DNA of 64,000 nucleotides. Source: Liolophura sinensis (lineage: Eukaryota; Mollusca; Polyplacophora; Chitonida; Chitonidae). Below the pieces are notes generated by a model. That model was given only the letters and a program-made list of their open reading frames with translations. It was not told the origin of the DNA and did no database searches. Of the stretch, positions 12,050-52,285 are shown one piece after another (within the stretch, counting starts at the first letter, position 1; every line of letters starts with the position of its first letter). The stretch spans positions 18,135,191-18,199,190 of the forward strand of contig NC_088300.1 in the NCBI RefSeq assembly GCF_032854445.1, given 5' to 3'. The translations under genes and the position numbers were made by a program.

Positions 12050-15000
12050 TCGGCGCTTTTTCATAGCAATATTCCCGTGAAGAACATCTTTACAGCTTTC
12101 ACACAGGCGGTAAGTAGATAGTAATGTTTTGGATTTTGACAGGTTTTATTATTTTGTCTATCCACATCTCTATCAATGATACTATCATTGATTTCGTGAG
12201 CACAGCCACAACACTGTCAACACTCGCTTCACTTGATACATTCAGGGCTACATTCTACGATTGTAAAAATACCACACATGCCTAGTCGATAATCCACCGT
12301 CGGAATCTCAACGTGTAGCTGATTTGACTAAACTTTTTGTTTCAGTGTTCTCTCCATTTGTCAGTCAGGAGACCTCAGGATTTTGACAGGTTTGAGCCCT
12401 TTGATGGAAGAGGTACGGAAATAGAGTCATTGCTGGTGTTATAATGTTTATCCTGTTTGCAGTCCCTGGTTGAATTTTACTTTTCATATTTTCTTAACAG
12501 TTACCTAACATGGGTCATTGTAGCTCTGTTCTGCCATAGTATTAAACTATTACATCGCTGGCATTTTTCTCAGTTGCCTGCCATTGTAAGATACCTTTTA
12601 ATTTCTGTCTCTGATGGATTGAATGCGGGGTGGGGGGGGTGGGGCGGTGTGGAGGCAGCCGCCATGTTTGAATACGTATGCCTCATTGAAAAATATGACC
12701 TAAAAAACTGATGTCTTTTCTGTTTATTGGGATTTAAAAGTGATTGTTGACATCACACATCTCAAATTATAATTAGTATGTGATGTTAATTCTGTGAGAA
12801 AATTCTACTTTAAGAAGAAATTATGTCATTTTCATCAACTGACTGTAAATCTTGTACTTTGACTTGTATAGATTTGAATTAAAATTTAAATTACACTTTT
12901 ATATTCATCACGATATCCAGTGCAGTGACAGTGACATCATTGTGTGCAAAGATATTAGAGTTCATAATGGCATGGTGGTGTTTAATACAATGAAATCATA
13001 TTCATAGGACATCATGATATTCGTTGGTAATGGCTGAGTTACATCATGATGTGACATTATGACACTGTGTGTCATTGTGTGACACACCATGCTGTCTAAT
13101 GTTAGCGCTAAGTGTCTAGCATACAGTAACCCGCCATGATCCCAATGCTGTGACGGAGTGTGAGCTTATCAGGAATTGAAACTTTATTGCTAAATACACA
13201 ATACATGATAATTTTCCTACCTTGATGAAGGTGTCTGTATTTGGTTTGGTGTTTTACGCCGTACTCAAGAATATTTCACTTATACGACGGCGGCCAGCAG
13301 TATGGTGGGTGGAAACCGGGCAGAACCCAGGAGAAACCCACGACCATCCGCAGGTTGCTGTCATACCTTCCCACGTTCACCATTGGTGAAAGGTATCTGT
13401 AGGTCAAAGGCTTGTTAATATGCTGATGCATATCACTAATCTGTCAGCTTTTAATAAACCATTGTGCATCAGTTAAAATACCCTAAATGACCATAAAGTT
13501 TATCCATGACTAATCTGACCATTTTTTCCTGATTCTGAGAGTTTGGTTACTTTTAGAAAGGTGTGCTAAGGGTTTGCTTGCTACATGGGATGATATTCCA
13601 CTGGAAAATTTTAAATTTCAACACCAAAAGTAATATTTTGTGTCATTTATTTGCCTCTAAAAATACACTTTTGTGGACGAAACTTTAGGTCATTTAAGGT
13701 AAGTGAAAATTTCTGTAAAAATGAATGTTTTAATTCATAGGCTTGCCTGAAGATGGTGCTGTCATTCCAAGACAGCGAGCCGTACCGATCATTACATCTC
13801 GCAAGGTTGAATTCCCAGATCGCTACCGACCTAATAAGGTGGCCTGGTTAGAATCACTTAACACTGCAGAGGAGGAGAAATTAGGCCTCGTTGATCTACA
13901 CCCAGATGTCTTTGCTACATTTCCACGGTTTGTGAATAGAATTCTTGCTCTATTTTTCCATGTATCTAATGCTTATTTCTAGAAATAAAATTTACATATG
14001 TGTATAGAGAGTATGTTTACTCCTGGATTCAGCTGTAAAAATTTGGATAGAACCATTTCAGTGGCTATTTAAATCACCTACGTGTATTGTTTAATATGCA
14101 AAAGGGGCTGGACTTTTAAAGTGGCCTTACAAGATGAGCATATGACAGCTACTGCAACATGTTACCCACAGTGCTGGTTACTATCGAAATAACGTACATG
14201 CATCACTATAGTTTTTTCGTGAATTTTTGACCCAGAATTATTTTCTTGTGAATGTTTCATTTATATTTTAGCAAAAGGCACACACATTTATCTGGAAATC
14301 CCACGTTCTCCAGTTTTGGCTAACCAGTCCTCAAAATGATTTGTTAGCATAGTCTATATTACCCCATAATTATAACCCTGAGCATTTCGGGTGGTAAGAA
14401 ACACTGGATTGGTTATTAAAGCTTGGCTTTCAGCCAGTAGGTCTTGCAAGATTCTCAAACAGAGAATTCTCTAGTTCGCAGTGCTTTCATTGTTTTTAGA
14501 GCCTTTGTGGCAGTAAATTGATCAACATGTTCTGTGTTGTCTTGCCTGAAGTTCTCTGTTTTTGGAGTCTTGGTGGCAGTAAAGTGATCAGTGTGTCCTG
14601 TGTAGACTTGCTTGAAGATCTCTGCTTTTAGAGTCTTTGTGGCAGTAAAATGATGAACGTCTCCTATGTTGTTTTGCATGAAGCTCTCTGTTTTTAGAGT
14701 CTTGGTGGCAGTAAAGTGATCAACATGTCCTGTGCTGTCTTGTAGGAAGTTCTCTGTTTTTAGAGTCTTTGTGGCAGTAAAGTGATCAACATGTCCTGTG
14801 CTGTCTTGTAGGAAGTTCTCTGTTTTTAGAGTCTTTGTGGCAGTAAAGTGATCAACATGTCCTGTGCTGTCTTGTAGGAAGTTCTCTGTTTTTAGAGTCT
14901 GTGTGGCAGTAAAGTGATCGTGTCCTGTGTTGTCTTGTAGGAAGTTCTCTGTTTTTAGAGTCTTTGTGGCAGTAAAGTGATCACATGTCCCTGTGCTGTC

Positions 15001-18000
15001 TTGTAGGAAGTTCTCTGTTTTTAGAGTCTTTGTGGCAGTAAAGTGATCAACGTGTCCTGTGTTGTCTTGTAGGAAGTTCTCTGTTTTTAGAGTCCTTTGT
15101 GGCAGTAAAGTGATCAACATGTCCTGTGTTGTCTTGCAGGAAGTTCTCTGTTTTTAGAGTCTTTGTGGCAGTAAAGTGATCAGTGTGTACTGTGTTGTCT
15201 TGCTTGAAGATCTCTGCTTGTAGAGTCTTTGTGGCAGTAAAATAATGAACGTTTGCATGAAGCTCTCTGTTTTTTAGAGTCTTGGTGGCAGTAAAGTGAT
15301 CAAATGTCCTGTGTTGTCTTGCAGGAAGTTCTCTGTTTTTAGAGTCTTGGTGAAGTAAAATGATGAATGTCTCCTACATTGTTTTGCATGAAGCCCTCTG
15401 TTTTTAGAGTCTTTGCGGCAGTAAATGATGAACGTCTCTTATATTGTCTGGCATGAAGTTCTCCATTTTTAGAGTCTTGGTGGCAGTAAAATGATCCACG
15501 TCTCTTATGTTGTCTGGCATGAAGTCCTCTGTTTTTAGAGTCTTGGTGGAAGTAAAGTGATGATTGTCTCCTGTGTTGTCTTGCATGAAGTTCACTGGAG
15601 ATCCCTTGCCTTCAATCAGTGTAACATACATATTTGAGTATAGCACACAATTATAGCTGCTGTATAACAACAATCAAATAAATGAATCAAGTGGTAGGAG
15701 AAAGTGAAATATGGTGCATGTAGCACATGGGCTGATCTGTTTATCAAGGGCTGTAACTGTGTATAGAATGCCAGGGTGTTTCAAATCTCACACCTTCCCT
15801 TTTTTATTGCAGCATTGATGTTCTTCATCAGAATGTCACATGGCAGTCACTCTATAAGAAGATTGTAAGTGAATTTTAAAGGACAAGACAAATAAATTAT
15901 GTTAAACAGCAAGATAGAAAGTGGTACCTTGGAAAATAATTTTAATCCTTAAATTAAATATTATTTACTTGAAGATGACTAATGTTAGACATGTTGATGA
16001 TGTTGTCAACTCAAAAAGATCCTAAAAACAAAAGATGAATTTAGTGCCATGTACCAAAATAAATAATCCTTTCTTGACCATTAGCATTCAAAATTGTATA
16101 TGCACTCTATGCCTGTGTATCAGTATCATGGATTTTTAGTTAGCATGCATGTGGTATGTTGTATTTGTATCTTACCTTCTTGACAGGACTATAAAAGAGT
16201 CCCGACAAGAGCGGAGATGAGGGGAGGGGGACGGAAACCGTGGCCACAGAAAGGGACTGGACGGGCTCGACACGGGAGTATCCGCTCTCCTATCTTTAAG
16301 AAGGGTATATATGAAATGCTTTTACTGTGTGCTATTTAAACATCCTGGTTTATGAAATGGGAGTTTATGAAATTGCTGGGATGAAACATTGCTCTTGGTC
16401 TCGGCTCGATCACCAGGCTGGTCAGGTATGTGGCTTTCCAGCGTTGCCATTTTCTGATGAACATGACATGAGTAAAAAGATTGTTAGTAATTATTGTAAG
16501 TACATTGTTAGACATAATTTCAAATGAAATAAATGTAATGAAATGCTTATGAACTTGGATTTAAAGTTTCCATTTATGAAAGGATAATTTTTTATCAGAT
16601 AACTGATGACTTAAGAAATGTACTAAATTTCCAGTTGTATGTGTGTCCAGAACATGTTCATGTGCTAACATGCACATACAATATGTAATATTATCATTAG
16701 GACTAAAGGGCACCCATGTTCGCATGGTTAGGAGGGTAGCACAACACATTCTTCAATTAGGAGCAACTCATCAGTGGTGGTCTCAAGTACAGCATAAAAC
16801 ACCAATCAGATAAGTAAATCACCAGTGTGGTTGCTGTCAGTTCAATGCCAGCTCACACTGACTTAATTCGATTCATGTCCTACATGAGAAGATCTGCCAG
16901 TGGCCTGCAGATGGTTATGAGTGTCCCCCACACTCATTCCTTCCAACATAATGCTGGCAGTCATCGTATAAATGAAATATTCTTAACACCAATCAGATAA
17001 ATAATGAAATAAATCATATGGACTACTGGTATGTTGGTTACAGGGGGTGCTGCTCACGGTCCAAGAGGTCCCAAAAGTTACTTTTATATGTTGGCAAAGA
17101 CAACCAGGGCGCTTGGTTTGCGGGTGGCATTATCTGTCAAATTGGCACAGGTATGTTTAGTTAATAAATAATCTAATGGCAATAGAAGCACATTAATAAA
17201 GAGCTTAACCAGTTTGAGTTGACTTAGAGTTTGATAATCCTGGAACTTCCTCATATAACACCCAGCATAAAGGATGAGGTGTCCAGATGCAGTGCTAAGG
17301 TCGGGTGTCATGTCTGGTGCCTTCTCCATGACAGTCCAGTGAAGCAGCAATGTCAAAAAAAAAAAACAAAAAAAAATTCAAGATTTTAGGGGAAAGAGTG
17401 TATCTAATTATGTCACATTTGCACTGATTTGATTGTGCAATGTTGACTGCATGTTACAGTAGCCATTTGCAATGGACAAACTGTTCAGTTAGTGAATAAA
17501 AAAATTCAAGTAACCTATCATCTGACTGTCCATTTATATCTGATCTTTATGTATGTTCCCAGGGAGATTTACACATAGTAGACTCATTTGACATCCCCAG
17601 TGATCAGCCAGAGGTGAGTACAACTAGCATTCTATCCAGGTCTGTTTTATCTGCCTGGAGTAAGACGAAGGATCTTAAGAAGTGCTACACCTACATGGTC
17701 TCTTCATTGTGAGAGTACATGAAGCAAAAAGGTCGTTTATGTTGAGTATCAAGTTTTCTGCATGTAATTGTCCTCTGTCTACTTAGGCAGCAGATAATAA
17801 TAATAATGATAATAATGATAATAATAAAAAGCACTCTGAGTTAATGGCAAGATCAAAGTGCCTGTGAGAAAGTGACTGAAAAAATGGTGACATATTATGA
17901 TAATTTCAGTCAAATATACGAAGCAACTGAAACCCCAGTCCATTCCATTCCATGGGAATAAATAAAGTCACTAAATGGAGATATGGGGCCCAAGGGATGG

Positions 18001-21000
18001 TGTGACACATTCAGTGTGTCTTGATAAATAGCGACAAATACATAGTTGAATGAAACAAATAAGGATGTCCAAATGTTTTAAATGTCACACCTGACAAACT
18101 CAAGTCCTTGAACTTAATGTATTGAGAGAAGCATATCTTTTAACTCCTGGGTGAAGAGTACAGATATTTGTACAAAAAAGGGACAGTAACATATTTGCCC
18201 TTCAGTTACTTGGAGCTCACTTTTTGTTTCTTTTTGGCAAGATTTACTTCCCTTAGCCCAGGGCTGGTGAAAAAACAGCAATATTTTGGGGTTCTGTATT
18301 TAAGCAGTATATTAGTAGCATATATGTGGTATAAGGCTAGCAGCAGGTACTTGATGCTTTGACAGTCTATTTTATATTCTCAAGTAGTTATGAATGAAAT
18401 CAAGGGAGTATTGAGCTTTCACTTGTTTAGAAATTTTTCTCGTGCATACTATGTGATATGTATGGTACATCAGACTTACCGGTGCAACTGGCTGCTTAAT
18501 TCAAAGTCCCATTGATTTTAAGCAGTTTGAATAAATGTTGAATTTGGTGTACAAATTTATTTTTTAACTTGTATGCTGTATTTCTAGTTTGAGTCACATT
18601 GATGTTGCAGTACATGGAATCTTTAGCTGAATCTCGGAAGTGGGGCGTTTCTGTACTGTTCATAGATGAGTAAGTTCAGACAGCTTTTCACAGCGCTGAT
18701 CATCTCTTGATGACACTATGCACCTACATCCCTCTAAACTGATGACCTAACCATTCCTTGCAAAAGAAGACAAATTTATGTCCTTTCTGATTTTGACATC
18801 AAAGCAGTAATATTTTTATGTCATGTCAGGTATACCTGTGTTCATAAAAGTGAATGAAAGATTTTGTATTTGATGGAAAAGATGGGGATTTAAAGTTCTT
18901 TCAAATTTATTTTATTTGTTGATTTGATTGGTATTTTACGCCATGCTCAAGAATATTTCACTTTATAAGACAGCAGCCAGCATTATGGTGAAAGGAAACT
19001 GTGCAGAGACCTTGCAATATACATGTAGTGTAATGTATGTCTGATTTAAAGGTTTCCTTCCACCATGATGCTGGCTACTGTTGTATAAGAGAAATATTTT
19101 TGAGTGCAGTATGCATGTCTGATTTAAAAGAACTTCTCTATGTCGTTTCCATCGTCTTTTACAACAGCAGCCAGCATTATGTTGGAAGGAAACCGGGTAG
19201 AGCAGTTCCTTTATATCAGATATATATTACTCTATATTTCCTTAGTTATACATGTAAATTGAGGATTCTTTTAAGTTATGTTTGAATATGTGAGTATGTC
19301 ATTTGATTCTTGCCGTTTATGTTAACAGCACTGACATAATGCCAAGAAACATCAGCCTGTCTCTGAACAAAATACCAAGTTTTAACCTGATGCCAGTCTA
19401 TGGTACGTCATTCACTGTTGTTTTCCTTTTTTGTTACATTAAAGATATAGATGGAGAGCATCAGTGCATACTTTTAATTTATTATATCTGTTCTCTTTGA
19501 TCTGTAGTATTACATGTAAGTGTGCTGTGTAGATATGAATATAGGTATGTGTATGTATGAATGCGTGCAGCATGCTCCTATGTTTGTGGATCTAACCTGG
19601 GACAGGCTGGAATGTGGCTATGCCCTCATCTGTGCAGCTCTATGTGTTGACATTATGCTGTATTTGTGTAGATTACTCTAAATATTTTAAATGACCGTAA
19701 ATTTCGTCCATGACTGACTTGCACATTTTCTTCTGATTCTCAGAGTTCTGTTGATTTTAGAAAGGTTTTTGAGGTTAGCTTTGAACATGGGATGATATTC
19801 AACTGGAAAATTTTAAGTTTCATTGCAAGAAAAAAGATATTTTGTAACATGTATTTGCCTCTAAAAATGCACTTTTGTGGACGAAATTTGAGGTCATTTA
19901 TGGTATATGCACTGTATGCTATATTTTGTGCGAGACAGAAGGCTGTACTGTTGACTTCGTTTTGTGCATATAGGGTGTGTTCTAGCATGTACTCTCTGCT
20001 TTATTACGGGTATGTATGGTGTGTTCTATACACTTAATAATAGTGCTCTGATGTGCTGTGTGTATGCCCTAGTTTGTGCCAGTCAGAGCATGTACTCTCT
20101 GCTTTATTCTGGGTATGTATGGTGTGTTCTATACACTTTATAATAGTGCTCTGATGTGCTGTCTGTATGCCCTGGTTTGTGCCAGTCAGAGCATGTACTC
20201 TCTGCTTTATTCTGGGTATGTATGGTGTGATCTATACACTTTATAATAGTGCTCTGATATGCTGTGTGTATGCCCTGGTTGTGCCAGTCAGAGCTTGTAC
20301 TCTCTGCTTTATTCTGGGTAAGTATGGTGTGATCTATACACTTTATAATAGTGCTCTGATGTGCTGTCTGTATGCCCTGGTTTGTGCCAGTCAGAGCATG
20401 TTCTCTCTGCTTTATTCTGGGTATGTATGGTGTGATCTATACACTTTATAATAGTGCTCTGATGTGATGTCTATATGCCCTGGTTGTGCCAGTCAGAGCA
20501 TGTACTCTCTGCTTTATTCTGGGTAAGTATGGTGTGTTCTATACACTTTATAATAGTGCTCTGATGTGCTGTCTGTATGCCCTAGTTTGTGCCAGTCAGA
20601 GCATGTACTCTCTGCTTTATTCTGGGTATGTATGATGTGTTCTATACACTTTATAATAGTGCTCTGATATGCTGTGTGTATGCCCTGGTTGTGCCAGTCA
20701 GAGTATGTACTCTCTGCTTTATTCTGGGTAAGTATGGTGTGATCTATACACTTTATAATAGTGCTCTGATGTGCTGTCTGTATGCCCTGGTTTGTGCCAG
20801 TCAGAGCATGTACTCTCTGCTTTATTCTGGATATGTATGGTGTGATCTATACACTTTATAATAGTGCTCTGATGTGCTGTGTGTATGCCCTGGTTGTGCC
20901 AGTCAGAGCATGTACTCTCTGCTTTATTCTGGGTATGTATGGTGTGATCTATACACTTTATAATAGTGCTCTGATGTGCTGTCTGTATGCCCTGGTTTGT

Positions 21001-24000
21001 GCCAGTCAGAGCATGTACTCTCTGCTTTATTCTGGATATGTATGGTGTGTTCTATACACTTTATAATAGTGCTCTGATGTGCTGTCTGTATGCCCTGGTT
21101 TGTGCCAGTCAGAGCATATACTCTCTGCTTTATTCTGGGTATGTATGATGTGTTCTGTACACTTTATAATAGTGCTCTGATGTGCTGTCTGTATGCCCTG
21201 GTTGTGCCAGTCAGAGCATGTACTCTCTGCTTTATTCTGGGTATGTATGGTGTGTTCTATACACTTTATAATAGTGCTCTGATGTGCTGTCTGTATGCCC
21301 TAGTTTGTGCCAGTCAGAGCATGTACTCTCTGCTTTATTCTGGGTATGTATGATGTGTTCTATACACTTTATAATAGTGCTCTGATGTGCTGTCTGTATG
21401 CCCTAGTTTGTGCCAGTCAGAGCATGTACTCTCTGCTTTATTCTGGGTATGTATGATGTGTTCTATACACTTTATAATAGTGCTCTGATGTGCTGTCTGT
21501 ATGCCCTGGTTTGTGCCAGTCAGAGCATGTACTCTCTGCTTTATTCTGGGTATGTATGATGTGTTCTATACACTTTATAATAGTGCTCTGATGTGCTGTG
21601 TGTATGCCCTAGTTTGTGCCAGTCAGAGCATGTACTCTCTGCTTTATTCTGGGTATGTATGATGTGTTCTATACACTTTATAATAGTGCTCTGATGTGCT
21701 GTCTGTATGCCCTGGTTGTGCCAGTCAGAGCATGTACTCTCTCCTTTATTCTGGGTATGTATGATGTGTTCTATACACTTTATAATAGTGCTCTGATGTG
21801 CTGTGTGTATGCCCTGGTTGTGCCAGTCAGAGCATGTACTCTCTGCTTTATTCTGGGTAAGTATGATGTGTTCTATGCACTTTATAATAGTGCTCTGATG
21901 TGCTGTGTGTATGCCCTGGTTGTGCCAGTCAGAGCATGTACTCTCTGCTTTATTCTGGGTATGTATGATGTGTTCTATACACTTTATAATAGTGCTCTGA
22001 TGTGCTGTGTGTATGCCCTGGTTGTGCCAGTCAGAGCATGTACTCTCTGCTTTATTCTGGGTATGTATGATGTGTTCTATACACTTTATAATAGTGCTCT
22101 GATGTGCTGTGTGTATGCCCTGGTTGTGCCAGTCAGAGCATGTACTCTCTGCTTTATTCTGGGTAAGTATGGTGTGTTCTATACACTTTATAATAGTGCT
22201 CTGATGTGCTGTCTGTATGCCCTGGTTTGTGCCAGTCAGAGCATGTACTCTCTGCTTTATTCTGGGTATGTATGATGTGTTCTGTACACTTTATAATAGT
22301 GCTCTGATGTGCTGTGTGTATGCCCTGGTTGTGCCAGTCAGAGCATGTACTCTCTGCTTTCTTCTGGGTATGTATGGTGTGTTCTATACACTTTATAATA
22401 GTGCTCTGATGTGCTGTCTGTATGCCCTAGTTTGTGCCAGTCAGAGCATGTACTCTCTGCTTTATTCTGGGTATGTATGATGTGTTCTATACACTTTATA
22501 ATAGTGCTCTGATGTGCTGTCTGTATGCCCTAGTTTGTGCCAGTCAGAGCATGTACTCTCTGCTTTATTCTGGGTGTGTATGGTGTGTTCTATACACTTT
22601 ATAATAGTGCTCTGATGTGCTGTCTGTATGCCCTAGTTTGTGCCAGTCAGAGCATGTACTCTCTGCTTTATTCTGGGTATGTATGGTGTGATCTATACAC
22701 TTTATAATAGTGCTCTGATGTGCTGTCTGTATGCCCTAGTTTGTGCCAGTCAGAGCATGTACTCTCTGCTTTATTCTGGGTATGTATGGTGTGTTCTATA
22801 CACTTTATAATAGTGCTCTGATGTGCTGTGTGTATGCCCTGGTTGTGCCAGTCAGAGCATGTACTCTCTGCTTTATTCTGGGTATGTATGATGTGTTCTA
22901 TACACTTTATAATAGTGCTCTGATGTGCTGTCTGTATGCCCTAGTTTGTGCCAGTCAGAGCATGTACTCTCTGCTTTATTCTGGGTATGTATGATGTGTT
23001 CTATACACTTTATAATAGTGCTCTGATGTGCTGTGTGTATGCCCTGGTTGTGCCAGTCAGAGCATGTACTCTCTGCTTTATTCTGGGTATGTATGATGTG
23101 TTCTATACACTTTATAATAGTGCTCTGATGTGCTGTGTGTATGCCCTGGTTGTGCCAGTCAGAGCATGTACTCTCTGCTTTATTCTGGGTAAGTATGGTG
23201 TGTTCTATACACTTTATAATAGTGCTCTGATGTGCTGTGTGTATGCCCTGGTTTGTGCCAGTCAGAGCATGTACTCTCTGCTTTATTCTGGGTAAGTATG
23301 GTGTGTTCTATGCACTTTATAATAGTGCTCTGATGTGCTGTGTGTATGCCCTGGTTGTGCCAGTCAGAGCATGTACTCTCTGCTTTATTCTGGGTAAGTA
23401 TGGTGTGTTCTATACACTTTATAATAGTGCTCTGATGTGCTGTGTGTATGCCCTGGTTTGTGCCAGTCAGAGCATGTACTCTCTGCTTTATTCTGGGTAA
23501 GTATGGTGTGTTCTATGCACTTTATAATAGTGCTCTGATGTGCTGTGTGTATGCCCTGGTTGTGCCAGTCAGAGCATGTACTCTCTGCTTTATTCTGGGT
23601 AAGTATGGTGTGTTCTATACACTTTATAATAGTGCTCTGATATGCTGTGTGTATGCCCTAGTTTGTGCCAGTCAGAGCATGTACTCTCTGCTTTATTCTG
23701 GGTATGTATGATGTGTTCTATACACTTTATAATAGTGCTCTGATGTACTGTGTGTATGCTCTGGTTTCTGCCTTTGAAAAGATGTGTATGCTTTGTTTTG
23801 ATGCTGGCTTGGGTATTTGCAGTACCTGCACTGTGATGTTTAGAAGCTTAGTCTATGTACATAAAGCAGTGCATCTAAACATTGGGCCTTGCGTGTAGAA
23901 GTTTTTCCACTACATTACCTGACTGTACATACCCACCATAAACCTACATTGTACCAAAAATGCCCTGTAGTGGGAGTTAATCCACTTGATTTCTCTGTCT

Positions 24001-27000
24001 ACTTTCCTGCTATAAATTTCTCCAAAATATGACAGTGCATACCGATACAGAGTGTATGTAGGTTGTGTTGTGTGATACATTGTGTGCATGTAGTTTTTTT
24101 TTCTTCAATTCAACCCCTGACTGTTTTGTACTGTTCAGAACATGTACTGCTGGGATCATATGCCCTGTGCAGGTTTTGACATTTGCTGTACCAGTATGCT
24201 TCGTGGTGTTGAGATCTGGAGCTGTTCTATTAACCGTGTTTTATTCAGAGCAGAATTGTATGCTCGACATCTATGTGTCGCAGGTTTGAACATGTACAAT
24301 GTGCTCTGTGGTGTGCAGATTAGAAGCTACACATATGCTTTAAGGTCTGTTTTCTTCAAACCCGAACATTTGTATGCTCTCTATCATGCAGGTTAACGCT
24401 GACAGTATGCTCTGTATCATTCTGATCTTAACATCTACAGTATGGTCACCATCATTCAGGCCTTAACATCTACAGTATGCTCACCATCATTCAGGCCTTA
24501 AAATCTACAGCATGATCTCTTTCATTCAGGCCTTAACATCTACAGTATGCTCACCATCATTCAGGCCTTAACGTCTACAGTATGCTCACCATCATCCAGG
24601 CCTTAACATCTACAGTATGCTCACCATCATTCAGGCCTTATCATCAACAGTATGCTCTGTATCATTCAGGCCTTAACATCTACAGTATGCTCTGTATCAT
24701 TCAGGTCTTTACATCTACAGTATGCTCTGTATCATTCAGGCCTTAATATCTACAGTATGCTCTGTATCACTCAGGTCTTTGCATCTACAGTATTCTTTCT
24801 GTCATTCAGTCCTTAACATCGACAATATGCTCACCATCATTAAGGTCTTAACATCGACAGTATGCTCACCATCATAAAGGTCTTAACATCAACAGTACGC
24901 TCACCATCATTCAGGTTTTACAATCCACAGTGTGCTCTCTCATGATTCAGACCTTAATATCTGCAGTGTGTTCTCTATCATTCAGGTCTTAACATCTACA
25001 TTCTGATCTCTTTCATTCTGCAGATGTTAACATCTACAGTATGCTCTCATGCATGGCATAGTCTACGGTATGCTGTCTATTGTTCAGGTCTTAATATCTA
25101 GGTCTTCATATCTACTATATGCTCTCTGTCATGCTGGTCTTCATGTCTACAGTATGCTCTCTGTCATGCAGGTCTTCATGTCTACAGTATGCTCTCTGTC
25201 ATGCAGGTCTTCATGTCTACAGTATGCTCTCTGTCATGCAGATCTTCATGTCTACTGTATGCTCTCTGTCATGCAGGTCTTAATGCCTACTATGTGCTCT
25301 CTGGCATGCAGGTCTTCATGTCTACTGTATGCTCTTTGTCATGCATCTACAGTATTCTTTCTATCATTCAGTCCTTAACATCAACAATATGCTCACCATC
25401 ATTAAGGTCTTAACATTGACAGTATGCTCACCATCATTAAGGTCTTAACATCTACAGTACGCTCACCATCATTCAGGTTTTACCATCCACAGTGTGCTCT
25501 CTCATGATTCAGACCTTAATATCTGCGGTGTGTTCTCTATCATTCAGGTCTTAACATCTACATTCTGATCTCTTTCATTCTGCAGATGTTAACATCTACA
25601 GTATGCTCTCATGCATGGCTTAGTCTACGGTATGCTGTCTATTGTTCAGGTTTTAATATTTACTGAACAGCATGGTGTCTATCGGGACATGGAGGTCTTC
25701 ATGATTACTGTATGCTCTCTGTCATGCAGGTCTTCATGTCTACAGTATGCTCTCTGTCATGCAGGTCTTCATGTCTACTGTATGCACTGTCATGCAGGTC
25801 TTCATGTCTACTGTATGCTCTCTGTCATGCAGGTCTTCATGTCTACTGTATGCTCTCTGTCATGCAGGTCTTCATGTCTACTGTATGCTTTTTGTCATGC
25901 AGGTCTTCATGTCTACATTATGTCTCTGTCCTGCAGGTCTTTATGTCTGCTGTATGCTCTCTGTCCTGCAGGTCTTCATGTCTACTGTATGCTCTCTGTC
26001 ACGCAGTTCTTCATGTCTACTGTATGCTCTCTGTCACGCAGGTCTTCATGTCTACTGTATGCTCTCTGTCCTGCAGGTCTTCATGTCTACTGTATGCTCT
26101 GTCATGCAGGTCTTCATGTCTACTGTATGCTCTCTGTCACGCAGTTCTTCATGTCTACTGTATGCTCTCTGTCCTGCAGGTCTTCAAGTCTACTGTATGC
26201 TCTGTGTCACGCAGTTCTTCATGTCTACTGTATGCTCTCTGTCATGCAGGTCTTCAAGTCTACTGTATGCTCTCTGTCCTGCAGGTCTTAATGTCTACAG
26301 TATGTCTCTGTCGTGCAGGTCTTCATGTCTACTGTATGCTCTCTGTCATGCAGGTCTTCATGTCTACTGTATGCTCTCTGTCATGCAGGTCTTCATGTCT
26401 ACTGTATGCTCTCTGTCACACAGGTCTTCATGTCTACTGTATGCTCTCTGTCATGCAGTTCTTCATGTCTACTGTATGCTCTCTGTCCTGCAGGTCTTCA
26501 TATCTACTGTATGCTCTCTGTCCTGCAGGTCTTAATGTCTACAGTATGCTCTCTGTCCTGCAGGTCTTCATGTCTACTGTATGCTCTCTGTCATGCAGTT
26601 CTTCATGTCTACTGTATGCTCTCTGTCATGAAGTTCTTCATGTCTACTGTATGCTCTCTCTCCTACAGGTCTTAATGTCTACTGTATGCTCTCTGTCCTG
26701 CAGGTCTTCATGTCTACTGTATGCTCTCTGTCATGCAGTTCTTCATGTCTACTGTATGCTCTCTGTCCTGCAGGTCTTCATGTCTACTGTATGCTCTCTG
26801 TCCTGCAGGTCTTCATGTCTACTGTGTGCTCTCTGTCCTGCAGGTCTTCATGTCTACTGTATGCTCTCTGTCCTGCAGGTCTTCATGTCTACTGTATGCT
26901 CTCTGTCCTGCAGGTCTTCATGTCTACTGTATGCTCTCTGTCCTGCAGGTCTTCATGTCTACTGTATGCTCTCTGTCCTGCAGGTCTTCATGTCTACTGT

Positions 27001-27274
27001 ATGCTCTGTCATGCAGGTCTTCATGTCTACAGTATGCTCTCTGTCCTGCAGGTCTTCATGTCTACTGTATGCTCTCTGTCATGCAGGTCTTAATGTCTAC
27101 AGTATGCTGAAGCACGAGAGCCTGGTGCTGACCTTGGCCGCTGTGGAGAAAATTGAGAATCGGCTGCTGTACTTGATGCACTCAAGCGCCGCAGACAGAA
27201 AGTACACCACCACTTGGATGTTGAAGGAAGAGGAGTGGGAACCGAATTATTTCAAGGATCAGGTCACCTGGTGA
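12029..27274 (+). CDS. MRPL4: Mitochondrial ribosomal protein L4 (uL4m), 10 coding exons, 327 aa
   Basis: uL4m is an early-binding protein of the mitochondrial large ribosomal subunit whose extended loop lines the exit tunnel. Coding exons are 12029-12109, 12346-12412, 13741-13927, 15813-15864, 16187-16304, 17044-17150, 17563-17613, 18611-18669, 19329-19402 and 27087-27274. They total 984 nt, all phases agree, and the product is close to the human length of 311 aa. Exon 1 encodes a basic, acid-free leader ([19 protein letters not shown]) typical of a mitochondrial presequence. The uL4 loop signature [19 protein letters not shown] is at residues 142-160, followed by GPRGP and the conserved LVALSVKLA-type core. 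The motif [16 protein letters not shown] starts exon 10 at residue 266. LHPDVFA at about 102-108 is typical of the mitochondrial branch. Introns 3 and 9 carry large tandem arrays; intron 9 is 7.7 kb and its 35-bp array abuts exon 10. The C-terminal tail ([15 protein letters not shown]) is lineage-specific. Confidence 0.96.
13239..13376 (-). mobile_element. SINE family 1, antisense, 5'-truncated
   Basis: The body matches well: TTTTACGCCGTACTCAAGAA, CGACGGCGGCCAGCAGTATG and CCGCAGGTTGCTGTC. The head is absent. It lies in MRPL4 intron 2. Confidence 0.8.
13479..13701. mobile_element. MITE family A, copy 1 (223 bp), terminal inverted repeats
   Basis: The left end TACCCTAAATGACCATAAAG pairs with the right end, whose reverse complement is TACCTTAAATGACCTAAAGT. 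The interior carries GATTCTGAGAGTTTGG, GGGATGATATTCCACTGGAA and TTTGCCTCTAAAAATACACT. It lies in MRPL4 intron 2 and ends 39 bp before exon 3. The TA at both ends suits a TA target duplication as in Tc1/mariner-type elements (inference). Confidence 0.8.
14470..15597. repeat. Tandem array, unit about 66 bp, about 17 copies, MRPL4 intron 3
   Basis: Units contain the block TTTTTAGAGTCTTTGTGGCA followed by GTAAAGTGATCAACATGTCC and a variable end (CTTGTAGG, CTTGCAGG, TTGCATGA). The unit is 66 bp in the well-conserved core (about 14690-15140) and drifts by small indels elsewhere. Because 66 is divisible by 3, the minus strand stays open over 14455-15120 with a 22-residue periodic peptide containing [16 protein letters not shown]. 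The array lies wholly inside intron 3 and the antisense frame has no start-exon or splice context, so it is called a repeat and not a gene. In the plus sense many units end in pyrimidine-rich sequence plus TAG/CAG, resembling 3' splice sites. Confidence 0.9.
16838..17013 (+). mobile_element. SINE family 1, diverged sense copy
   Basis: A degraded head (GTTCAATGCCAGCTCA) is followed by CCAACATAATGCTGGCAGTC, TATAAATGAAATATTCTTAA and the tail CAATCAGATAAATAA. It lies in MRPL4 intron 5, about 30 bp before exon 6. Confidence 0.65.
18911..19015 (-). mobile_element. SINE family 1, antisense fragment cluster
   Basis: The reversed tail and AAGAATATTTCACTTTATAA, then CAGCCAGCATTATGGTG, mark a partial copy in MRPL4 intron 8. 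Shorter sense (about 19045-19110) and antisense (about 19150-19205) fragments of the same body follow it. Confidence 0.7.
19683..19905. mobile_element. MITE family A, copy 2 (223 bp)
   Basis: It matches copy 1 in length and interior: GGGATGATATTCAACTGGAA, TTTGCCTCTAAAAATGCACT and TGTGGACGAAATTTGAGGTC. It is at the 5' side of the 102/103-bp array in MRPL4 intron 9. Confidence 0.8.
19984..23768. repeat. Tandem array, 102/103-bp unit, about 37 copies, MRPL4 intron 9
   Basis: The unit contains GTGCCAGTCAGAGCATGTAC, then CTCTCTGCTTTATTCTGGGT, a TATGTATG or AAGTATGG variant, then TATACACTTTATAATAGTGC and TGTGTATGCCCTGG or TGTCTGTATGCCCTAG. Copies differ mainly by GGTTG versus GGTTTG, which gives 102 or 103 bp. 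Runs of the 102-bp form keep one plus frame open, for example 21616-22275 (219 codons). These periodic, cysteine- and tyrosine-rich frames have no relation to a known protein and sit in an intron, so they are not annotated as genes. About ten units carry GGTAAGT and the rest mostly GGTATGT, both donor-like. A MITE copy ends about 80 bp upstream of the array. Confidence 0.95.
24782..25098. repeat. 317-bp segment duplicated within the 35-bp array, copy 1
   Basis: This segment and 25344-25660 share the same order of diverged units, beginning GCATCTACAGTATTCTTTCT and ending CTGTCTATTGTTCAGG. They differ at only a handful of positions. The shared order of private variants shows a block duplication inside the array and not independent unit spread. 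Confidence 0.85.
25344..25660. repeat. 317-bp segment duplicated within the 35-bp array, copy 2
   Basis: This is the second copy of the block at 24782-25098. It shares its unusual units, including CATTCTGATCTCTTTCATTC and TGCATGGC(T/A)TAGTCTACGG. It lies between a short run of young units (25100-25343) and the long homogeneous run that starts near 25690. Confidence 0.85.
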
Positions 27275-32087: not shown

Positions 32088-38311
<6,224 letters not shown>

Positions 38312-49900: not shown

Positions 49901-52034
49901 TTCATTACTGATTTACAAGCTAAAAACTATTAGTCATTAAAGGCAATACTATAAACATGTGATCATCCTACAGGCACCCTTATCCTGCATCATGGACGGT
50001 AGAAGTTTTCTTGTGGAAGGATTATAACACTAACAATAACAGCATCCAAGCCACACATGCATGTTATTTTCTGTCCAATATCCTTGGTTTACAGGTATAC
50101 CTGCATTCAGCAATATGCCTCTTGCAAGCTCTATGCATCCAGGAGAAAATTCATCAGTGAGGTGCATTTTATTATTTTTTTTTTTTTGTAAAAGAGAAAA
50201 ACTAACAGTTCTCAAGTGAGAAAAGGCAGCAAAAGCCTTGCATTAAATCCAGAAAGGCATCATGGGTACAGGTATTTTTTTAGCTGATTTGACAACATTA
50301 CGACATTGCAGCTAAATGCTTTATATGTGATTTAAAAGTGACCAGTCAAGAATACATTGTCAATTACAAACACAGATCTACAGTTACCTGACCAAATCAG
50401 TTAAAAAAAAAACACACAAAAAAACACTTGGCTAAGGCATAAATTAACAAGTTTGTTTGGGGTAACCCTATCTACCCAATGAAAACCACCCCACCAATTT
50501 TGTTTTTTTTTTTTGGCTTTCAATTTTAACTTTTTTTTTCTTTACATTTTTCATTTAAAGCTTGCTTCTGTTTGTATATTATTCAACAAATATAAAATGT
50601 AAATCTGTATTAATTTATTTGAACACTCCATTTGGTCATCTGACGGGAATTGTTAATAAATCATCTCTAAAAAAACTTTGACGCGTTACACCAAACTCTG
50701 TTCTTCAAAAAAAAAAAATAATAATAATAATAATTTTTACAAAATAAAAATAAATAAATGCTGGGCAATACCCCAAACAACTTTTTAAGTTTCACCATTT
50801 CACCAAGGTTATGACAGACAAAGCCTCAACCTGATCCACACAATACACAGACTTGGATTAGCATACATAAATATGATAAAGAGATACATGAATAGACAAG
50901 TACAGGTTATTTATGGGGTTAGTCGTTAAAACCAAGACACAGTGACAAGAAAACCTACAGGCTTTACTTCTAAAGATAGAGCACTAAAAAAAAAAAACAT
51001 GGGTCAACAAAGTAGCATGGATAGGAGACTAGTATGAGATTCATCTCTAGCATAAGATTCATACTGTAATGCCTTAATGTCTGTTCAACTCTAATTTACA
51101 GATTTTGTGGAGTCGCTACATGACTGAACTGATGTACATGAGTCTGTGTAAATGTCTCAAAAGGATAGCTTGTATATTTCACCAAATTAAAAAAAAAAAC
51201 AAAAAAAACCCATTTAAAACCCATTAGTGAAAGAAATATCAAGGTCATAACGATAATGTATTTAGATTGTAAACTAAACAATGACTGAGACCATCACATA
51301 TTCTTAAATACAATGCCAATTATTTCCTACTCTCTGTTGCAGATTAACACATCTTGTGCAATAATAAGGAAGACTAATTCTAGCATCAAAGTTTCTGACG
51401 CTCAGAAGCTTGCTGTAGTTCACCATATCCTATAGGTAATGAATAAGCAGCCTGTAGGTCTGTGGTTCAACATGTAAAGCCTGATTATGGGTTTAAATCT
51501 AGGACAAAACGAGAAAACATGAAGCTGCAGGTCCAGTGCACAGCAATGATATGCTTAATGCTGTAGCATACAACCATAAAATGTTGATGCCCTCGGAAAT
51601 GAGGTCATCTTATTCCAATTACTGCAGACTTAAAAACTGATCAAACAGCTTGGCTACCAAGCAATCATGGCTATGATCTGATGAATTCACAGATACTCAC
51701 TCAAACTGGTCACTATAGACAGTTAAGAATAAGACCGTATGATCAACCTGCTAAGCTCAGGGTCAGTGGAACAGACATTTCTATAGAAACATCCACAAAG
51801 GTACTGAAGGTAAGCATTGATTCTGGAAGCTAAACTATCACATGCAAACTCCTCATCAGTGTTCTTGATTTCTTCACAACTGTATAACATCTTATTTCCT
51901 TCTGTAGGCTGCTCAGGGCTTCCATAGCATAGTATGCTTCACAGCAGAAGCTGGGCTATTTCATGGCAGATACACTAAACTGCATCCTCACAAGATATAC
52001 AGTGGTGTTCTTGCAAATCATCCTTGTGTCTCCA

Positions 52035-52285
52035 ACACATCAACTTTCATGTTTCAGCGCATCAACCTTGGAGTTCCAGTGCATCAATATTTGTGTTCCA
52101 GTATATCAAACTTGGCATTCCAGCATGTCAACCTTGGAGTTCCAGCCCATCAACCTTGGAGTTCAAGCACATTAACCTTGGTGTTCCAGCACATCAGCCT
52201 TGGTGTTCCAGCACATCAATGTTCTGACAGATCAACCTTGGTGTCCAGCACATAAACCTTGGTATTCCAGCACATCAAGCTCGAC
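52035..52285. repeat. 21-bp tandem repeat 3' of PPP1R14
   Basis: About 12 units are built on CATCAACCTTGGAGTTCCAG (20-21 bp). All three plus frames are open for 67-70 codons because of the period. It lies 400 bp beyond the PPP1R14 stop codon, probably within its 3' UTR. Confidence 0.75.

Follow-up and report, generated by a model that had tools for sequence, protein, structure and literature searches.

How does a housekeeping gene come to have about 79 near-identical acceptors ahead of its authentic one, and which of them is used? The question is raised by MRPL4 (uL4m) of the chiton Liolophura sinensis, which we analysed in a window of 64,000 nt (the whole stretch of DNA under study, to which the positions below refer). 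The arrangement is a clean natural test of 3' splice site choice, and its value as a test lies in the fact that sequence alone cannot distinguish the sites of the MRPL4 array. The genome searched was the L. sinensis assembly GCA_032854445.1 (609,464,459 bases in 632 contigs), which was published as Liolophura japonica (PMC11068029); the name was later corrected to L. sinensis (PMC12441733).

Anatomy and history of the MRPL4 junction array

Eight coding exons of MRPL4 were placed on the forward strand, with canonical AG/GT splice sites and a single unbroken frame of 277 aa; the N-terminal exons lie outside this set, and the placement does not fix the numbering of the last intron and exon as 9 and 10. 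The spliced product matched the Pfam Ribosomal_L4 profile over its entire length (E=1.5e-54). Splice sites, frame and the Pfam match define the seven upstream coding exons within 13741-19402 (13741-13927, 15813-15864, 16187-16304, 17044-17150, 17563-17613, 18611-18669 and 19329-19402), the last of which ends at the final donor CTATG|gtacgt, leaving phase 1 (G|GT). It is followed by the last intron of 7.7 kb (19403-27086, forward strand), which holds two mutually unrelated tandem arrays, and by the terminal coding exon (27087-27274, forward strand), which ends in KDQVTW-stop. This exon is homologous to mammalian uL4m chains, and its start aligns to them, one having GLNVHSMLKHQTLVLTL at that stretch.

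The second array of the intron has a period of 35 bp, and TRF put it at 78.2 copies over 24372-27108. When the junction 35-mer was used for wrap-around alignment, 79 units were counted upstream of 27087, with diverged but recognisable units from ~24250. Each unit combines 13 nt from the end of the final MRPL4 intron with 22 nt from the start of the terminal exon, and the exon start falls within the last unit of the array, where the junction GCTCTCTGTCATGCAG|GTCTTAATGTCTACAGTATGCT lies at 27086/27087; the authentic junction is thus itself the final array unit (27074-27108, forward strand). Aligned to the consensus of the young units, the junction scored 41, where shuffled sequences reached at most 13, and the first 30 exon bases alone scored 18 against a maximum of 12 among 2361 random 30-mers from the window. 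A genome-wide search with the junction 33-mer at up to 3 mismatches returned 34 occurrences, every one of them inside the MRPL4 array.

The exonic part of the unit encodes GLNVYSML, a uL4m motif conserved in mammalian chains, which argues that the exon is older than the array and seeded it. The 35 bp common to array and exon could also have arisen the other way round, with a pre-existing repeat supplying both the acceptor and the exon start. We consider this scarcely credible, given that the exon-start motif is conserved in mammals at the protein level, that no copy of the junction sequence turned up elsewhere in the genome and that the motif is broken in derived units.

Seeding by the junction is also recorded in the order of the units, all on the forward strand. 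The old, diverged part (24250-25101) consists of ancestral-type TTAA/ACAG units with ~19% pairwise divergence, of which 15/17 have A at position 6 and 17/17 have A at position 15. Intermediate units (25102-25312) mostly carry C6 together with A15 or T15. The stretch 25343-25650 is a second copy of the block 24775-25095 (300/321 columns identical), a ~300-bp segment re-duplicated within the array. The young, homogenised units (25695-27086) are of the type TTCATG/ACTGTATG, differ pairwise by 6.3% and all have the AG; C6 is found in 32/35 and T15 in 32/35, with a few ancestral-type units sitting inside the block. TTAAT and TACAGT were read as ancestral because the protein motif fixes both in the exon, and the changes seen in young units would break that motif by turning N into H and S into C. 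The exon unit retains A6 and A15 even though 32/35 young units have each derived base, showing that the boundary unit escapes homogenisation. Since the old block keeps the ancestral state and the young units are derived, the junction seeded the array and the derived variant spread later, beside the exon.

These results bear out most of what the first-pass annotation had described: about 70 tandem junction copies at 24390-27110 (~79 units here), a boundary at 27087 with units of 13 nt of intron and 22 nt of exon, an exonic part encoding the uL4 motif GLNVYSML, and a distinction between older upstream TTAA/ACAG units and young TTCATG/ACTG units. Its label of satellite is corrected to minisatellite. 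Its proposal that the array was seeded by the junction and then homogenised with a variant is supported by the junction scores, the order of the units and the conservation of the exon.

A false expansion or misplacement of the array during assembly was also considered, as tandem arrays are error-prone and the HiFi reads have a mean length of 8.3 kb at 14X (PMC11068029), the coverage on which the exact copy number rests. We regard such an artefact as very improbable: the units differ in an ordered, old-to-young manner, the window is without any N, the read length exceeds the array length and independent junction arrays occur at other loci.

Decoy acceptors and the choice of the 3' splice site

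The first-pass annotation held that every unit carries a pyrimidine-containing CAG. This is true of most units but not all: AG is retained in 73/79 upstream units and AG|G in 59/79, leaving 6 without AG and 20 without AG|G. Its further claim that dozens of near-identical acceptors precede the correct one stands, acceptor-like decoys of similar local strength being present. Among the 73 units that keep the AG, 51 have a pyrimidine count at least equal to that of the authentic site (11 of 16). Local strength therefore fails to account for the last acceptor winning, and its position beside the unchanged exon is the likely cause. Each unit also has, ~28 nt ahead of the following AG, a TTCAT or TTAAT that matches a loose branch-point consensus and may be a branch point.

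When the decoys were treated as acceptors, 23 positions, the authentic site included, were in frame 0. From 25695 on, all 12 frame-0 decoys upstream of the authentic site stay open through the exon and would give an uninterrupted longer protein (+46-464 aa). Together with the AG kept in 73/79 units, this raises the alternative that array acceptors are used, yielding longer MRPL4 proteins or non-productive mRNAs that lower or tune expression. The human IFI6 (6-16) minisatellite, which reportedly supplies multiple splice donors that are used, is a precedent; like the MRPL4 array it lies at an exon boundary and its units carry splice signals, but its repeats are on the donor side and the repeated donors are said to be used. 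Several observations make use of the decoys unlikely in MRPL4. The remaining 50/73 decoys, in the other two frames, never reach the normal MRPL4 C-terminus, and the inserted residues would come before the conserved uL4 core motif. Splicing at comparable amphioxus arrays is reported to be regular and undisturbed (PMC3087553, PMC3902484). That the young array is open to translation was considered and rejected as a sign of coding selection: for a 35-nt unit, openness in all frames is one single event, to which we assign, by our own estimate, a probability of roughly 0.2.

Relation to amphioxus mirages and other boundary repeats

Minisatellites spanning intron/exon boundaries were named 'mirages' in amphioxus Adh3 and are also known from the genes for globins, troponin C and PGBD5 (PMC3087553, PMC3902484). 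All four anatomical features of mirages that we looked for were found in the MRPL4 array: head-to-tail minisatellite units (35-bp period, ~79 units), a unit that spans the boundary and includes exon sequence (13 nt + 22 nt), AG/GT signals in many but not all units (73/79 with AG), and an authentic boundary unit that escapes homogenisation (A6/A15 retained), the last as in amphioxus BflGb6, where the boundary unit is likewise kept out of homogenisation (PMC3087553). The amphioxus mirages (Adh3; globins BflGb6/BflGb9; troponin C; PGBD5) and the MRPL4 array are thus alike in being tandem copies of a boundary, on the acceptor or the donor side. They differ in host (a cephalochordate versus a mollusc), in copy number (3-6 units in BflGb6 versus ~79 in chiton MRPL4) and in occurrence, mirages being known from a few amphioxus genes whereas the chiton arrays apparently lie at several per cent of sampled exons.

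Human segmental duplications also have tandem repeats at their exon-intron boundaries; these too are boundary minisatellites, able to change splicing or to give rise to introns, but they average only ~4 units of 30 bp, fall within coding sequence in half of the cases and belong to recent primate paralogs (PMC2812944). Our literature search, incomplete in its coverage, found no report of mirage-type arrays in molluscs, nor are tandem repeats or minisatellites mentioned in a comparison of five chiton genomes (PMC12005716). The junction array itself belongs to a named kind, and what seems to be new is its apparent abundance in a mollusc.

Taken with the anatomy, this makes it very probable that the MRPL4 array is a passive minisatellite of the amphioxus mirage type, seeded by the MRPL4 junction and removed with the intron, with the 3'-most acceptor used and no function of its own. 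On this reading, the minisatellite was born from a tandem duplication of the 35 bp straddling the last MRPL4 acceptor and expanded through slippage or unequal exchange, one block or more being duplicated on the way. Homogenisation with the TTCATG/ACTG variant acted mostly on the exon-proximal side, while protein-level selection kept the unit that doubles as exon ancestral. The array is transcribed and most likely leaves with the intron, since splicing would use the acceptor at 27086/27087, the 3'-most and the only one to lead straight into the unchanged exon. It probably lacks a function of its own and is tolerated.

Junction arrays at other exons

To place the MRPL4 array within its genome, we inspected 60 kinesin/myosin exons, arbitrarily chosen from match lists of these two gene families, with 320-nt flanks. 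Nineteen tandem arrays lay near these exons. Exon sequence was clearly inside the array at 4/60, comprising three kinesin exons (L075, acceptor; L085 and L097, donors) and one myosin exon (L116, donor). A fifth array, at the donor of the myosin exon L122, takes in a shorter exon stretch, giving 5/60 (95% interval 2.8-18%). Junction arrays thus recur at other exons, at acceptors and donors alike, and MRPL4 is not unique in this genome.

Such recurrence could mean that splice junctions are preferred seeds, with a transcription- or splicing-linked process starting tandem duplications at exon boundaries. The 4-5 of 19 arrays that straddle a boundary exceed the 2.0 expected under uniform seeding of intronic minisatellites, and further arrays end close to a boundary (L062, L107, L111, L127). 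The excess is not significant (P 0.06-0.15), so special seeding at junctions is not required. Genome-wide, runs of three successive donor or acceptor motifs were mildly above their reversed-pattern controls (511 vs 365; 108 vs 70), in counts that are clustered by array. We consider preferential seeding unlikely. One of the arrays just named, the 29-bp array L062 (1691-2483) in a Ras-family intron, stops 4-5 nt from the acceptor and does not enter the exon.

Further examples came from two other searches. Among 60 kinase/Ras loci, many of them long matches in a single frame with no intron close by, a Ral-like exon (L063, 1699-1873) has four extra intact donors, AACTTAG|GTGAGT, in 34-35-bp units. 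Seventeen acceptor-like arrays taken from a motif search, the first three (L131-L133) selected by eye, were traced downstream, and four of them reach an exon (L132, L148, L133 and, at the splice site only, L131). At the NAXE-like locus L132 (G000:C2:25316700-25317450), many 45-bp copies of the acceptor junction lie upstream of an exon encoding GYKPTVFYPK, with 20/20 exon bases shared. The EGF-like L148, named by eye and with no Pfam match, shares 30/30 exon bases, and the TOCA-like L133, with Pfam HR1_TOCA slightly below the cut-off, shares 11/12. L131, which ends at an ankyrin exon, was not counted as exon-overlapping, as only ~50% of 12 exon bases are shared. The 14 arrays beyond the first three, followed for 300 nt, showed a clear coding exon at L148 only. 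The NAXE-like array is a close parallel to that of MRPL4.

Whether splice-junction minisatellites pervade chiton genomes, at roughly several per cent of conserved-gene exons and with thousands of decoy arrays, we judge to be about an even bet. If they do, the spliceosome must pick the exon-proximal copy among near-identical neighbours, and the arrays would continually supply longer introns, alternative sites and possibly new introns. Should the sampled frequency of 4-5/60 hold, the chiton would give very many replicates, at donors and acceptors both, and the rate at which junction arrays make alternative exons or new introns could be measured.

The window itself contains a probable second, old junction array on the reverse strand (34093-34328), the 21-bp units of which continue the donor end CTATGACATTACAAG|GTCAG of a RAB4-like exon (34311-34373). 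The RAB4-like junction scored 20 against the 21-bp unit, a value reached by 0/2976 random 50-mers from the window; the exon part alone gave a weak score of 9, matched or exceeded by 1.6%. This suggests that the RAB4-like donor probably seeded the array, as a donor-side mirage. The other array of the last MRPL4 intron (19984-23772; ~37 units of 103 bp, 96% alike) was considered as a higher-order form of the 35-bp unit and rejected, the two being unrelated; its similarity to the MRPL4 junctions did not rise above chance (the D7 donor scored 11, the 99% level of shuffles being 12). A 66-bp array in an earlier MRPL4 intron (14491-15597, 17 units) has an acceptor-like TTGTCTTGCAGGAAG inside its units and matches no MRPL4 junction. 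A diverged 22-bp array of 13 units lies at 52003-52278.
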